44,887 nt of DNA from Rhodocyclales bacterium (GTDB lineage Bacteria; Pseudomonadota; Gammaproteobacteria; Burkholderiales; Rhodocyclaceae). Numbering within the stretch: the first letter of the stretch is position 1; the number at the start of each line of letters is the position of its first letter. Below are positions 38,129 through 44,887 of this stretch, one piece after another. The notes under the pieces are model-generated. The model had not been told where the DNA came from and ran no database searches. It was given only the letters and a program-made list of their open reading frames with translations. Location of the stretch: NCBI GenBank assembly GCA_026399415.1, contig JAPLQZ010000289.1:1-44887 (forward strand), given 5' to 3'. A program made the translations under genes and the position numbers.

Positions 38129-38237
38129 TTGCAGCGATCTCGTCGTTGCCAAGACCGCCTGTCGTCGTCGCCCGCAGAATGTTCTGTGGGTCGCGCTGCG
38201 GCAGGCTCAGCACAAGTCCATTCATTAAGCATAGAAT

Positions 38238-38338
38238 GAAAAAGCCCGGCGGGTTTCCCCGTCGGGCTTTTGGATACGGACTCAGTCTTTCGACTGAACC
38301 TTATTGTAGCAACGGCTCTCACCCCGGATAGCAACAAT
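38238..38338 (-). ncRNA. Predicted tracrRNA (type II-C, Neisseria-like)
   Basis: Minus strand ATTGTTGCTATCCGGGGTGAGAGCCGTTGCTACAATAAGGTTCAGTCGAAAGACTGAGTCCGTATCCAAAAGCCCGACGGGGAAACCCGCCGGGCTTTTTC: anti-repeat to the array repeat with a 5x5 internal loop, second hairpin, GC-rich terminator + U tract. Confidence 0.92.
38241..38271 (-). terminator. Rho-independent terminator of tracrRNA
   Basis: Minus strand AAAGCCCGACGGGGAAACCCGCCGGGCTTTTT. Confidence 0.88.
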
Positions 38339-38345
38339 GGAGCCG

Positions 38346-38374
38346 ATTATGCGGGAGGAAACCATGGCTGACAA
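38346..38374 (-). promoter_or_regulatory. Predicted sigma70 promoter of tracrRNA overlapping cas9 RBS/start
   Basis: Minus strand TTGTCA (38374-38369) - 17 bp - CATAAT (38351-38346); one mismatch in each hexamer; predicted TSS ~38338-38340. Confidence 0.75.
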
Positions 38375-41300
38375 GACCCTTGGCGCACTTACTTTCGGCT
38401 TCGACATCGGCATAGCTTCTGTCGGGTGGTGCGTACTCGGAGAAGACCGGATCGTCGATCTCGGCGTGCGCTGCTTCGACAAGGCCGAGACAGCCAAGGA
38501 AGGGGATTCGCTCAACCTTGTGCGCCGCACGGCCCGCCTCATGCGCCGCCGCCTGCGCCGCCGCGCCTGGCGATTGACCAAGCTGGCACGCCTGCTGAAA
38601 CGCGAAGGATTGATTGCCGATGCCATGTTGTTCAAGAACCAGCAAGCGTTCCCACAATCGCCGTGGCAACTGCGCGTCGACAGCCTGGACCGACGGCTGG
38701 ACAGCGCAGAATGGGCGCAAGTGATCTACCACCTTTGCAAGCACCGTGGCTTCCATTGGATCAGTCGTGCGGAGGAAAAGCAGGCGGACGCGGATACCAA
38801 GGGCGAAGGCGGCAAGGTCAAGCAAGGTCTTGCCGGCACCACCAAGCTAATGAAGGAGAAAGGCTATCGCAGCGCCGCCGAAATGGTGCTGGCCGAATTC
38901 CCCGAGGCGCAGCGAAACAAGCAGGGCGACTACGGCAAGGTGCTCTCCCGTGTGCTGTTGGGCGAGGAATTGTCCCTGCTATTCCAGCGACAGCGTGAGC
39001 TGGGCAACCCTCATGCGACCCAGAAACTGGAGACGGCGATTCTCGGGAGCGGCGACCGCAAGAGCGGCTTGTTCTGGACGCAGAAACCGCCGCTGGCAGG
39101 GAGCGACCTGTTGAAAATGCTCGGCAAATGCACCTTTGAGAAAGAGGAATGCCGGGCACCCAAGGCCAGCTTTACAGCCGAACGCCATGTCTGGCTGACG
39201 CGACTCAACAATCTTCGGATCGTCGTTGAGGGCACCACGCGCGGCCTGAACGAACTGGAGCGGAGAATCGCCCTGCCCCTGCCTTACAGCCAAGCCGGCG
39301 ACTTTACCTACAAGCAACTTCGCAACGCGCTGGTAAAAGGGGGCGCCTTGCCCGATGCATTCCGCTTCGCCAGTTTCTCCTATGCCCAACAGCCCGATGG
39401 CAAGGCGAAAGACCCAGAAACGGCCGTGCTGGTAAAGCTTCCCGCCTGGCAGGAATTACGACTGACGCTGAAAAAGGCCGGCCTGGAAACCGAATGGCAA
39501 GGCATGGCCGGCGCCGCCACGGATGGCCGGCCGGAACTGTTGGACAACATCGCGCGGGTATTGAGCGTTTTCAAGGATGACGAGGAAGCGGCAGCAGAGC
39601 TACGCAAGCTGCCCCTGCCCAGCGCGGAGAAGATGATCGATACGCTGTTGGACATCCGCTTCGACAAATTCCACGCGCTCTCGCTCAAGGCGCTGCGGCG
39701 GATCGTGCCGCTGATGGAAACCGGCCTACGCTATGACGAAGCGGTTGCTGCGATCCCCGACTACGGGCACCACAGCCAGCTTCACAAAGTCGGCGAAGGC
39801 GAACACAAGTATCTGCCGCCGTTCTACTCCGGCCGCGAAAAGGATGGCCGCATGGTGTTCAGCGAGGACATGGACGTACCGCGCAATCCCGTCGTGCTGC
39901 GCGCCCTCAATCAGGCGCGCAAGGTAGCCAATGCACTGATCCGCCGTTACGGCTCGCCGTCCGCCGTGCATATCGAAATGGCACGGGATTTATCGCGGCC
40001 CATCGACGAACGTCGGAAGATCGAAAAGGACCAGGCCGAGTATCGCGACAGAAATGACAAGGACAAGGCCATGTTCGCCGAGCAGTTCGGCCAGCCACCC
40101 CAACGCAACGAATTCGAGAAGTGGTGCCTATACCGCGAACAACAAGGGAAATGCGCCTACTCCATCGAGCCGCTGGACCTCCATCGCTTGCTGGAGCCGG
40201 GCTACGTCGAAGTCGATCACGCCCTGCCTAAATCCCGCAGCTTCGATGAGAGCAAGAACAACAAGGTGCTGGTACTCGCCGCAGAAAACCGCAACAAGGG
40301 CAACCGCACGCCCTACGAATATCTCGGCGGCGCCGAGGAAAGTCCTCGCTGGCAAACGTTCGCCGCCTTCGTCGAAGGCAACAAGGCCTACCGCCTCGCC
40401 AAGCGCAGCCGACTGCTGCGCAAGAATTTCGGCAACGACGAGGCCAAGGAATTCCGCGAACGCAACCTGAACGACACGCGCTACATCTGCCGCTTCTTCA
40501 AGAACTATGTCGAACGCTACCTGCAACTGAAAGTCGGCGCTGGCGAGACGGCGGCGAAGCGCTGCGTGGTACTCAGTGGCCAGACCACTGCCTTCCTACG
40601 GGCCCGCTGGGGACTCATCAAGGTACGTGCCGACAATGACCGCCACCATGCCCTTGATGCCGCCGTGGTAGCGGCGTGCAGCCACGGCATGATCAAGCGG
40701 CTCGCCGACTATGCCCGACGCGAAGAACTGAGGAACGTGCGCACTGGATTCGTCGACATGGAAACCGGCGAGATCGTCGATCCAGCCATGTTCCAGCAAC
40801 TACGGCAACACTTTCCCGAACCTTGGCCGCATTTCCGAGCCGAACTGGAAGCTCGCCTGAAAATCGACGACCGAGCCGCGCTGCGAGAGGAAATTGGGCG
40901 GCTTGGCACCTATCCGCCTGAGACGCTGGAAGCGCTAGGGCCACTGTTCGTTTCGCGTGCTCCGCAACGGCGCAACAGCGGCGCCGCCCACAAGGACACC
41001 ATCTACGGCCAGCCGGAGCGCTTGAAGGCGCAAGGCGGCGTAACGCAGAAGGTTCCGCTCTCTGGTCTGAGCTTGAATGACTTGGACAAGCTGATCGACC
41101 CGCATCGCAATGAAAAGCTCTATGCCGCCGTCCGCGCGAGGCTGGAAGCCCACGGCGGAAAGGGCGACAAGGCGTTTCCCCCGGGCAATCCGTTATGCAA
41201 ACCAGACCGCGAAGGCAATCCGACCGGTCCTATCGTGCGAACCGTCACGATGGTGATCGACAAGCTGTCCGGCATCCCCGTGCGCGGCGGCATCGCCAAG

Positions 41301-41777
41301 AACGACAGCATGTTGCGGGTGGACGTGTTCACCAAGGCGGGCAAGTTCCATCTGGTACCGGTGTATGTGCATCACGCGGTAGCGAAGACATTGCCGAATC
41401 GGGCGATTGTTCAGGGTAGGGATGAGGGCGAGTGGACCTTAATCGACGACACCTTCGAATGGTGCTTCTCGCTGTATCCGAATGATCTGATTAAGGTAAC
41501 GCAAAAGGGCGGCGAAGCAGTATTCGGCTATTACCGCAGTTGCCATAGCGGAACAGGTGCAATAAGCGTTGCCCTGCATGATCGATACGCCTATGGCCCA
41601 CGGACAACAAGCTTGGCTCTCTATCAGAAAGAACCGAACAAGCCTATCCCTAACGACAAACTTGGATTGATGGAGGCAGTCGGCGTAAAGACAGCGCTTA
41701 ACTTTGAGAAGTTCCACGTCGACGTTCTCGGCAATATCTACCCTGCCCCGCCGGAGCCGCGCCTTGGTCTGGCGTAG
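38364..41777 (+). CDS. cas9: Cas9, type II-C (~1137 aa); catalytic motifs intact
   Basis: RuvC-I FGFDIGIASVGWCVL; Arg-rich bridge helix RLMRRRLRRRAWRLTKLARLLKREG; RuvC-II AVHIEMARDLS; HNH YVEVDHALPKSRSFDESKNNKVLVLAAENRNKGNRTPYEY; RuvC-III NDRHHALDAAVVAACS. ATG at 38364 has GGGAGGA RBS (ORF track starts at 38337). Confidence 0.97.
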   Translation: MADKTLGALTFGFDIGIASVGWCVLGEDRIVDLGVRCFDKAETAKEGDSLNLVRRTARLMRRRLRRRAWRLTKLARLLKREGLIADAMLFKNQQAFPQSPWQLRVDSLDRRLDSAEWAQVIYHLCKHRGFHWISRAEEKQADADTKGEGGKVKQGLAGTTKLMKEKGYRSAAEMVLAEFPEAQRNKQGDYGKVLSRVLLGEELSLLFQRQRELGNPHATQKLETAILGSGDRKSGLFWTQKPPLAGSDLLKMLGKCTFEKEECRAPKASFTAERHVWLTRLNNLRIVVEGTTRGLNELERRIALPLPYSQAGDFTYKQLRNALVKGGALPDAFRFASFSYAQQPDGKAKDPETAVLVKLPAWQELRLTLKKAGLETEWQGMAGAATDGRPELLDNIARVLSVFKDDEEAAAELRKLPLPSAEKMIDTLLDIRFDKFHALSLKALRRIVPLMETGLRYDEAVAAIPDYGHHSQLHKVGEGEHKYLPPFYSGREKDGRMVFSEDMDVPRNPVVLRALNQARKVANALIRRYGSPSAVHIEMARDLSRPIDERRKIEKDQAEYRDRNDKDKAMFAEQFGQPPQRNEFEKWCLYREQQGKCAYSIEPLDLHRLLEPGYVEVDHALPKSRSFDESKNNKVLVLAAENRNKGNRTPYEYLGGAEESPRWQTFAAFVEGNKAYRLAKRSRLLRKNFGNDEAKEFRERNLNDTRYICRFFKNYVERYLQLKVGAGETAAKRCVVLSGQTTAFLRARWGLIKVRADNDRHHALDAAVVAACSHGMIKRLADYARREELRNVRTGFVDMETGEIVDPAMFQQLRQHFPEPWPHFRAELEARLKIDDRAALREEIGRLGTYPPETLEALGPLFVSRAPQRRNSGAAHKDTIYGQPERLKAQGGVTQKVPLSGLSLNDLDKLIDPHRNEKLYAAVRARLEAHGGKGDKAFPPGNPLCKPDREGNPTGPIVRTVTMVIDKLSGIPVRGGIAKNDSMLRVDVFTKAGKFHLVPVYVHHAVAKTLPNRAIVQGRDEGEWTLIDDTFEWCFSLYPNDLIKVTQKGGEAVFGYYRSCHSGTGAISVALHDRYAYGPRTTSLALYQKEPNKPIPNDKLGLMEAVGVKTALNFEKFHVDVLGNIYPAPPEPRLGLA
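40531..40553 (+). repeat. Dispersed 23-bp repeat, copy 9 (in frame inside cas9)
   Basis: AAGTCGGCGCTGGCGAGACGGCG, encodes part of LKVGAGETAAKR. Confidence 0.75.
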
Positions 41778-42666
41778 CGTAATGATCTCCCGCCCCGCCA
41801 AACTGCGGCGGGAGCATTACTCGCTTGCCATAGAGCAGGAGCAAACAGCCTTTGTCCCTTTCGAGGACATCGCCGTCATCGTCCTCAATCACCGCGAAAT
41901 CACGCTTACCCATCCGGTGCTGTCCGCCTGTGCCGAATATGGCATTGGGCTTTACGCGACGGGCAGTAACCATCAACCATCCGGAGTATTCCTGCCCTTC
42001 CTCCCGCATTCGCGCACCACGCGCATGATGCGCAAGCAACTCGACATCGCCCGACCGCTCGCCAAGCAGGTTTGGGCGAGCATCGTCCGTCGCAAGATCG
42101 AGAATCAGGCCGCATGCCTCAAGCTCTGCGGACGGGAAGGCGTGGATCGTCTGGAGTCCTACGCCAGGCGCGTGCGCTCGGGCGATCCCGACATGCTGGA
42201 AGGACAGGCCGCCGCCTTCTATTTCACGCAAATGTTCGGTCAGGGCTTTCATCGCGGTCAGGAGCGTTGGACCAACAGCGCGCTGGACTATGGCTATGCG
42301 GTACTGCGCGGCGCCATCGCGCGGGGACTGGTGGCCCACGGTTTGCACCCTACCGTCGGCCTGTTCCACGACAGCGAGCAGAACGCCTTCAATCTCGCCG
42401 ACGACCTAATCGAACCCTTTCGCCCTCTCGTCGACTTGCATGTCGGCAAACACCCGGCGAATACCGAAGGCGATCTTTCGCCGGCGGACAAGGCCGCGCT
42501 GGTGGCTTTGCTCAACGTCGATGTCGCCATGCCGCAAGGCCGGATGTCTGCTCTATCCGCCATCGAGTACGCAGTGGAAAGCCTCGTCCGCGTATTCGAG
42601 GAAGACAGCAACAACATGGAACTGCCCGCGCTTATTGGCTTGCAGCCGCATCGGTTGGAGTGTTGA
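41764..42666 (+). CDS. cas1: Cas1, type II
   Basis: VWRSVMISRPAKLRREHYSLAIEQEQTAFVPFEDIAVIVLNHREITLTHPVLSACAEYGIGL...; GYAVLRGAIARGLVAHGLHPTVGLFHDSEQNAFNLADDLIEPFRPLVD; TTG start proposed, overlapping the cas9 end. Confidence 0.95.
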   Translation: MVWRSVMISRPAKLRREHYSLAIEQEQTAFVPFEDIAVIVLNHREITLTHPVLSACAEYGIGLYATGSNHQPSGVFLPFLPHSRTTRMMRKQLDIARPLAKQVWASIVRRKIENQAACLKLCGREGVDRLESYARRVRSGDPDMLEGQAAAFYFTQMFGQGFHRGQERWTNSALDYGYAVLRGAIARGLVAHGLHPTVGLFHDSEQNAFNLADDLIEPFRPLVDLHVGKHPANTEGDLSPADKAALVALLNVDVAMPQGRMSALSAIEYAVESLVRVFEEDSNNMELPALIGLQPHRLEC

Positions 42667-42669
42667 GGC

Positions 42670-43002
42670 GTGGGCGTCGAGACGCGGCGATATATGCGAT
42701 TGCTCGTCTTCTTCGATCTGCCGATGGTCACCAAGGCCGAAAAGCGGGCCTATGTCCAGTTTCGCCGCTTCCTTCTCAACGACGGCTTCGACATGATCCA
42801 GTGGTCGGTCTACGGTCGGATTCTCAACGGCAACGATGCCGAAACCAAACACCTGCGGCGGTTAGCGGACAACCTGCCGCCCGCAGGTTCGGTGCGTTGC
42901 ATGACCGTCACCGAGAAGCAATTTGCGGGCATGCACCTGCTCGTCGGCATGCCGCTATTTCAGGAAAAAAAGGTCGGCGTCGCCCAGATGCTGCTCTTCT
43001 AA
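42670..43002 (+). CDS. cas2: Cas2
   Basis: RRYMRLLVFFDLPMVTKAEKRAYVQFRRFLLNDGFDMIQWSVYGRI. Confidence 0.95.
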   Translation: MGVETRRYMRLLVFFDLPMVTKAEKRAYVQFRRFLLNDGFDMIQWSVYGRILNGNDAETKHLRRLADNLPPAGSVRCMTVTEKQFAGMHLLVGMPLFQEKKVGVAQMLLF

Positions 43003-43054: not shown

Positions 43055-43066
43055 GAGTTGCGCCAC

Positions 43067-44822
43067 ATTGTAGCTATCCGGGGTGAGAGAGGGAGCTACA
43101 ACGTCGATCCGTACCAGGCTTTCATCGATCAGCATTGTAGCTATCCGGGGTGAGAGAGGGAGCTACAACTGTTGATGGTGAGCATGGCGCTGAGATATAC
43201 ATTGTAGCTATCCGGGGTGAGAGAGGGAGCTACAACCTACATTGCGTCCGGGCAGAGGGCATTAACCATTGTAGCTATCCGGGGTGAGAGAGGGAGCTAC
43301 AACTCGTCCGGTTGTTCAAAGAGCGCGGCCTGGCATTGTAGCTATCCGGGGTGAGAGAGGGAGCTACAACCCGTTTCCGCATTGTAAACGCAATGTGAGG
43401 CATTGTAGCTATCCGGGGTGAGAGAGGGAGCTACAACGCGATATACACGAAGCGCTACATTCGAGCGCATTGTAGCTATCCGGGGTGAGAGAGGGAGCTA
43501 CAACCGTGGAGCGCATGAAAGCGTACATGGCCGACATTGTAGCTATCCGGGGTGAGAGAGGGAGCTACAACAGCTTCGGCGGCGGCCTGGTCGAGCTTCT
43601 GCATTGTAGCTATCCGGGGTGAGAGAGGGAGCTACAACACAATGGCGGGAAGTTTGATTTTTTCTATACATTGTAGCTATCCGGGGTGAGAGAGGGAGCT
43701 ACAACTGATCTTTTTCGTTAATCATAGAATACCCCCATTGTAGCACGAATTGCTGGGTGCTGACGCTGCCCGGCCCCATTGTAGCTATCCGGGGTGAGAG
43801 AGGGAGCTACAACAATGCGGACGGAACACCCAAACGCAAAGCGCATTGTAGCTATCCGGGGTGAGAGAGGGAGCTACAACGGGGAGAATGTTACCCCAGA
43901 AGCGACAAGCCATTGTAGCTATCCGGGGTGAGAGAGGGAGCTACAACGTTAATAATGCGCACTGGGTTTTCCAGCGTCATTGTAGCTATCTATCCGGGGT
44001 GAGAGAGGGAGCTACAACGTTAATAATGCGCACTGGGTTTTCCAGCGTCATTGTAGCTATCCGGGGTGAGAGAGGGAGCTACAACACCGCTTCCGTCCAG
44101 CTTCCCGTAGTCCGGCATTGTAGCTATCCGGGGTGAGAGAGGGAGCTACAACATTCGATCCGCTCAGGTTATAGCGGACGTCCATTGTAGCTATCCGGGG
44201 TGAGAGAGGGAGCTACAACAGTCTTCTGCCGCTCTAGCCGACGCTGGAACATTGTAGCTATCCGGGGTGAGAGAGGGAGCTACAACAACGAGGTTTGGGA
44301 TAAGCGCGAGTGCAGGCATTGTAGCTATCCGGGGTGAGAGAGGGAGCTACAACGCGCTGCGCACCGCTTATCGCGACTGGTGTCATTGTAGCTATCCGGG
44401 GTGAGAGAGGGAGCTACAACACCCGCTCGTCAGTGCAGACGCATCCACTACATTGTAGCTATCCGGGGTGAGAGAGGGAGCTACAACAGTCTTCTGCCGC
44501 TCTAGCCGACGCTGGAACATTGTAGCTATCCGGGGTGAGAGAGGGAGCTACAACGCGAACATCAAGCGCGTGAACAAGGAAACGCATTGTAGCTATCCGG
44601 GGTGAGAGAGGGAGCTACAACGCAGCAGGTGAGCAGGCTCTTGAGGTTGTCCATTGTAGCTATCCGGGGTGAGAGAGGGAGCTACAACATTCTTGCCAAG
44701 GTTGAGAGCGTCTATGGTCATTGTAGCTATCCGGGGTGAGAGAGGGAGCTACAACCCCGTCGCCACCATCAGCGCGGCGCCGAAGCATTGTAGCTATCCG
44801 GGGTGAGAGAGGGAGCTACAAC
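43067..44822 (-). CRISPR. Type II-C CRISPR array: 27 repeat positions (25 perfect, 1 internally deleted, 1 with 4-bp insertion), 26 spacers of 30 nt
   Basis: Plus-strand repeat ATTGTAGCTATCCGGGGTGAGAGAGGGAGCTACAAC (36 nt; a C always precedes, so 37), regular 67-bp period. crRNA sense GTTGTAGCTCCCTCTCTCACCCCGGATAGCTACAAT(G). Confidence 0.98.
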
Positions 44823-44875
44823 CTCATGATTGAGGGGTGTGCCAATAAACCGGCACACCCCTCAATCATGAGGTT
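44820..44875. repeat. 24-bp perfect inverted repeat with 8-nt loop abutting the terminal CRISPR repeat
   Basis: AACCTCATGATTGAGGGGTGTGCC-aataaacc-GGCACACCCCTCAATCATGAGGTT. Confidence 0.95.
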
Positions 44876-44887
44876 CTTGCTTCGCAA

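Follow-up and report, generated by a model that had tools for sequence, protein, structure and literature searches.

The compact type II-C CRISPR-Cas locus described here, in which the tracrRNA gene adjoins cas9 on the opposite strand, raises the question of where the tracrRNA promoter lies and what sharing that DNA means for the two genes. The locus is contained in a 44,887-nt stretch of DNA, referred to below as the window (Rhodocyclales bacterium, assembly GCA_026399415.1, contig JAPLQZ010000289.1, positions 1-44,887; GC content 62%), and is complete, with tracrRNA, cas9, cas1, cas2 and a 26-repeat array (Table 1). Its gene content is that of N. meningitidis-like systems, comprising Cas9, a Neisseria-type Cas1 and Cas2 without csn2 or cas4, and the ORF listing of the window contained no further cas-type ORF between cas2 and the array. 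The repeats are 36 nt long and the array is transcribed opposite to the cas genes, as the RF01344 matches lie on the minus strand; this strand is also fixed by the complementarity of the anti-repeat. The tracrRNA shows the anti-repeat, nexus and terminator of type II-C systems, with a canonical fold and canonical pairing with the repeat (co-fold of tracrRNA and repeat, -51.6 kcal/mol), and by these predictions is of the N. meningitidis type. The same order of tracrRNA, cas9, cas1, cas2 and array is given for the Neisseria meningitidis II-C locus (Nme1Cas9) in the available text of its descriptions (PMC13431127; PMC3656092, Fig. 6D).

Table 1. Features of the type II-C locus, in coordinates of the window.
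Feature	Position	Strand	Description
Candidate cas9 promoter AGCACA-17-TAGAAT	38209..38237	+	weak, score 6.3; just left of the tracrRNA terminator
tracrRNA gene	38238..38338	-	about 100 nt: anti-repeat, nexus hairpin, terminator hairpin with U-tail
Intrinsic terminator of tracrRNA	38240..38271	-	fold -22.7 kcal/mol
Anti-repeat of tracrRNA	38304..38338	-	86% complementary to the CRISPR repeats; duplex in co-fold
Predicted tracrRNA start	38338	-	A, 7 nt past the -10 box, first anti-repeat base; placed from box position
Predicted tracrRNA promoter, -10 box CATAAT	38346..38351	-	from sequence and conservation in relatives
cas9 Shine-Dalgarno sequence GGAGG	38354..38358	+	inside the tracrRNA promoter spacer; loci of the 12-15 nt class have a purine-rich Shine-Dalgarno sequence here too
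cas9	38364..41777	+	1137 aa, type II, Neisseria-type; TIGR01865, E=9.8e-215
Predicted tracrRNA promoter, -35 box TTGTCA	38369..38374	-	one mismatch to TTGACA; inside cas9 codons 2-4
cas1	41740..42666	+	type II, start approximate; TIGR03639 (cas1_NMENI), E=3e-80
cas2	42670..43002	+	TIGR01573, E=2.5e-21
CRISPR array	43066..44822	- (crRNA strand)	26 repeats of 36 bp; Rfam RF01344 CRISPR-DR34, 26 matches

The array itself carries traces of rearrangement. A 9-bp repeat remnant (CATTGTAGC) at 43735-43744 lies between two spacers, where it breaks the regular 67-bp unit spacing, and resembles a repeat from which an internal stretch has been deleted. Two spacers are each present twice (43948-44048, 44220-44250, 44488-44517) and one repeat contains a 4-nt CTAT duplication (43979-44018), both signs of array duplication. 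A perfect hairpin with arms of about 22-24 bp adjoins the array and closes the window at 44823-44887. In the same assembly, the hairpin also precedes a second array of 13 repeats, on contig C104 (L001, about 1435-1500), where the flank is the same and the leader-proximal spacers differ; this probably reflects variation between strains or a fork in the assembly at a single array.

The first-pass annotation had proposed a minus-strand tracrRNA promoter, TTGTCA-17 bp-CATAAT, lying across the cas9 ribosome-binding site and start codon, and its boxes, strand, spacing and position were all recovered from the sequence. The 17-bp spacer holds both the Shine-Dalgarno sequence and the ATG of cas9 (38364), the -10 box lies just upstream of the former, and the -35 box runs from the third base of codon 2 through codon 3 to the second base of codon 4. 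A sigma-70 matrix, applied to all 89,714 placements in the window across both strands, ranked this site best (12.5); at a spacing of 17 bp, no other site on either strand has one mismatch or fewer in each box. Such sites occur at 0.011 per kb per strand, which puts the chance of finding one within 4 bp of the needed place on either side at about 1e-4; a local promoter scan found one site, against 0.2 in the shuffled local region. Sigma-70 promoters were taken to have hexamers 16-18 bp apart and a start 6-9 nt past the -10 box, and here 10 of the 12 box positions match at a spacing of 17 bp. The start had been expected at about 38338-38340, at the beginning of the anti-repeat, and the position predicted from the boxes falls on A38338; in the co-fold, an RNA starting there pairs with the repeat through the repeat's last base. 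Two further in-frame ATGs were dropped as cas9 starts, one at 38337 and one at 38349 that has GGAG 6 nt upstream of it, since the conserved GGGAGG Shine-Dalgarno sequence and the conservation of the region favour 38364.

Relatives were collected by searching for Cas9 within the window's family, order and class and in a GTDB contig set (a search of plasmids returned distant or partial Cas9s only), which yielded 80 loci with a recognisable tracrRNA adjoining cas9. For footprinting, 63 family-level loci were anchored on the CCCCGG core of the tracrRNA; these loci are related and their counts are therefore not independent. A -10-like box was present 15-18 nt past the core in 62 of the 63 (CATAAT in 20, TAGAAT in 18, TACAAT in 7, TATAAT in 6, and others), and hexamers starting with TTG were found at a spacing of 17 in 29 loci and of 18 in 22 (51/63), whereas no other spacing between 0 and 44 had more than five. 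The distance from the -10 box to the cas9 ATG falls into classes of 12-15 nt (43 loci), 18 nt (11), 27-40 nt (17) and 93-175 nt (6), the last taking in the Neisseria-like loci, which were recognised by their tracrRNA and Cas9 N-terminus. With its gap of 12 nt the window belongs to the first class, where the -35 box is in or beside the first cas9 codons; in the 18-nt class it coincides with the ATG and codon 2 (ATGCAA, which is TTGCAT on the other strand), and in the 27-40 nt class it is upstream of the ATG. A TTG -35 box at 17 or 18 bp is kept in 41/43 loci of the window's class and in all 11 of the 18-nt class, a good one in just 7/17 of the 27-40 nt class, and promoter matches are poor in a few more distant loci (L088, L094, L098, L107, L114). 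The Neisseria-like loci have the same tracrRNA promoter (TTGACA or TTGACT-17-TAGAAT) with cas9 about 95 bp off. The conserved letters thus track the tracrRNA and not the reading frame, which makes a protein-level cause unlikely, and on this evidence the predicted promoter is fixed relative to the tracrRNA while the cas9 start floats. On a quick Cas9 tree, used solely for this point, the gap class switched more than once while the promoter persisted.

That quick tree of the Cas9 body also disagrees with the 5′ module of tracrRNA, promoter and first codons (L025, L028, L011, L068 and others), and the window's Cas9 body clusters with loci whose gap belongs to other classes, a hint that recombination has occurred just inside cas9.

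If the first cas9 codons encode a promoter on the other strand, a trace of it might be sought in their silent positions. We compared 27 family-level genes with an ATG at the window's place; choosing genes by ATG position alone (o = 35 or 36), and not by the -35 box, returned the same 27. Codon 3 ends in C in 27/27, while the expectation derived from these genes is 18.3-18.8 (P about 2e-5; the control codons share the same phylogeny), and it does so whether it encodes Gly, Asp, Ser or Val. Codon 4 always starts with AA (Lys or Asn), and CAA on the cas9 strand is the TTG core of the -35 box on the other. At codons 2, 4, 7 and 8, C endings are far below expectation; such scarcity is usual near gene starts. 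Codon 2 of the 18-nt class is CAA and never CAG in 11/11; five genes had the length needed for a test, which gave P=0.0085, although CAG is the commoner Gln codon in most of these five. By this codon test, the first cas9 codons are under apparent selection for the promoter of another gene. Coding also appears to cost the promoter something, keeping its -35 box short of consensus: the consensus A at position 4 was found in just two overlapping loci (L010, TTGACA; L112, TTGACC), whereas in the four Neisseria-like loci whose promoter is clear the -35 box is TTGACA or TTGACT.

The expectation that the hexamers would be conserved in cas9 codons 2-4 of homologues was thus borne out, both by the TTG at 17-18 bp and by the invariant C of codon 3, and the footprinting and the silent sites together strongly support a tracrRNA promoter overlapping the cas9 translation-initiation region. 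We put the probability that TTGTCA-17-CATAAT is a genuine sigma-70-type tracrRNA promoter of a type II-C locus, embedded in the start of cas9, at roughly 0.88. Consensus matches to sigma-70 boxes do arise by chance, and the hexamers could be by-products of the complement of the Shine-Dalgarno sequence and of the codons, with the tracrRNA transcribed from a promoter further to the right in cas9. This is very improbable in view of the position-specific conservation, the silent-site constraint and the retention of the same promoter where cas9 is some 95 bp away; moreover, the sigma-70 matrix found no other minus-strand site scoring above 7.7 in 38150-38650.

With an embedded promoter, RNA polymerase would start at A38338, move leftward and stop at the terminator near 38240, giving a tracrRNA of about 100 nt. 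The separation of about 95-100 bp between tracrRNA promoter and cas9 seen in Neisseria-like loci is absent in this clade: cas9 starts 12 nt past the -10 box, with its Shine-Dalgarno sequence and ATG in the spacer and the -35 box read through as codons 2-4, and selection for that box shapes codons 3 and 4.

How cas9 itself is transcribed bears on what the overlap does. Its mRNA needs its own Shine-Dalgarno sequence and must therefore start at or to the left of about 38350, which leaves room for a promoter only within or beyond the tracrRNA gene. The first-pass annotation had spoken of divergent transcription; the opposite strands are as it described, while the geometry is doubtful, as cas9 transcription must abut or cross the tracrRNA start, and the units overlap or collide rather than plainly diverge. 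For this reason the two may compete by promoter occlusion, collision or antisense pairing, which would tie the outputs of Cas9 and tracrRNA to each other, a weaker inference than that of a transcription start at A38338. Such mutual interference is what the first-pass annotation suggested could set the Cas9:tracrRNA ratio.

The overlap may equally be mere compaction without a regulatory role, and we give even odds to a real promoter whose overlap is neutral, the two genes sharing DNA and being transcribed so rarely that competition between polymerases, and with it any control of a ratio, is absent. In E. coli bidirectional promoters, competition is reported to be negligible at basal activity and to arise only under strong activation (PMC12825309). 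The gap to cas9 changed several times on the Cas9 tree while the promoter stayed, and the distance is thus not universally fixed. Against neutrality, a gap of 12-13 nt is tightly kept within the window's clade (40 loci), although the constraints of the Shine-Dalgarno sequence and the -35 box alone may explain this.

A scan for a plus-strand cas9 promoter in the window and in all relatives identified none. Just left of the tracrRNA terminator the window has a weak candidate (Table 1), at whose spot same-genus loci carry -10-like CATAAT, TAGAAT or TACAAT; if used, it would give cas9 a leader antisense to the whole tracrRNA. In the window's class, the interval 81-140 nt to the left of the anchor shows an excess of plus-strand promoter-like sites: across 38 loci it gave 18 bin hits with a score of at least 8, compared with 0-2 in each bin further off and 8 on the minus strand. 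Were cas9 transcribed from there, its leader would be fully complementary to the tracrRNA (predicted duplex, -204 kcal/mol), and tracrRNA could repress cas9 through occlusion, collision and RNase III cleavage. A plus-strand TACAAT within the anti-repeat, which might serve cas9 instead, is broken as a rule in the window's class (intact in 2/43 loci, against 10/11 in the 18-nt class), which also fits transcription from further left. Such a regulatory device is nonetheless doubtful: the window's candidate scores just 6.3, the enrichment may mirror AT-rich intergenic DNA, and the U-rich tail of the tracrRNA terminator itself produces A/T-rich plus-strand words in this region. The terminator hairpin can, in addition, be read as a weaker plus-strand terminator (CTTTTGG; plus-strand fold, -25.8 kcal/mol), which could stop a cas9 transcript coming from the left. 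Still more speculative, and rather unlikely, is the full form of this idea, in which transcription of cas9 passes through the tracrRNA gene, giving the mRNA a leader antisense to all of it, and the embedded promoter acts as a counterweight. This would amount to feedback in cis that couples Cas9 synthesis to the supply of tracrRNA and needs no dedicated repressor RNA of the kind that Streptococcus pyogenes has in its long tracrRNA form.

Three other arrangements were considered for the window and rejected. TGGATA-17/18-TATTGT, 26 nt left of the anchor and the most promising of the internal candidates, is inseparable from tracrRNA sequence fixed by RNA structure, and its spacing is wrong in the window; the repeat-type TACAAT of the anti-repeat is broken there (AACAAT); and a symmetric bidirectional -10 box (TANNNTA) does not fit the plus-strand reading G-ATTAT-G.

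In other gap classes the last two do recur. An intact plus-strand TACAAT in the anti-repeat complement occurs in 10/11 loci of the 18-nt class against 2/66 elsewhere (Fisher 6e-10), suggesting that the anti-repeat there doubles as a cas9 promoter. The intact loci are L026, L031, L050, L052, L054, L061, L062, L074, L075 and L080 (equivalent to 38333-38338 of the window); elsewhere the box is often broken by C changes that preserve G-U pairing in the RNA. The symmetric TANNNTA occurs in 16/17 loci of the 27-40 nt class against 6/60 elsewhere (8e-11), with 3/43 in the window's class, and could act bidirectionally, for tracrRNA and cas9 alike; it was seen in L032, L036, L041-L044, L051, L053, L055-L058, L065, L071, L076 and others. 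Both associations were computed without phylogeny and are leads rather than proof. Judging from these motifs, the gap classes seem to solve cas9 transcription differently, the window's class having as a rule neither an intact TACAAT nor TANNNTA and more plus-strand promoter-like sites left of the terminator.

Known systems offer partial parallels. In Neisseria-like loci the tracrRNA has the same architecture and is likewise on the strand opposite to cas9, yet there a gap of about 95 bp, lacking in the window, holds a promoter of cas9's own (TTGCAT-18-TATATT, identified by eye), and Neisseria cas9 is drawn with separate -10 and -35 boxes (PMC13431127). Type II-C loci with the tracrRNA encoded upstream of cas9, on the other strand, have been described before (PMC4624362; compare PMC10281378). 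Compared by description, the available text on the Bordetella pseudohinzii locus gives a putative divergent tracrRNA upstream of cas9 with a predicted promoter and terminator, as in the window, and does not mention an overlap with the cas9 ribosome-binding site or codons (PMC4624362). For the EH CRISPR-Cas9 system, the available text likewise gives a tracrRNA gene of about 100 bp upstream of cas9 with a predicted promoter and terminator and describes no overlap with the cas9 start (PMC10281378). The minimal II-C locus of Campylobacter jejuni resembles the window's, with a tracrRNA mapped by dRNA-seq; the portion of that report available describes promoters within each repeat, which fire crRNAs and have the same kind of box as the TACAAT of the 18-nt class, and no tracrRNA promoter embedded in cas9 (PMC3656092). 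Bidirectional promoters of E. coli show that opposing promoters on shared DNA can compete for polymerase; their symmetric TANNNTA matches the 27-40 nt class, whereas the window's CATAAT is not symmetric (PMC12825309). In the literature searched, which covered the key papers incompletely and may have missed a prior mention, we found no account in which cas9 codons contain a tracrRNA promoter, and it is this predicted embedding in the cas9 start that appears to be new here.

The embedded promoter would be a case of protein-coding DNA with a double duty, in which the promoter of Cas9's own RNA cofactor puts a constraint on the first cas9 codons. The N-terminal residues, codon choice and start position of such Cas9s would be inseparable from tracrRNA output, which matters for the cloning or recoding of native II-C loci. 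The arrangement also poses the question of how Cas9 and tracrRNA are balanced in minimal II-C systems, for which the gapped loci of the Neisseria kind and the collapsed loci of this clade may serve as natural controls.
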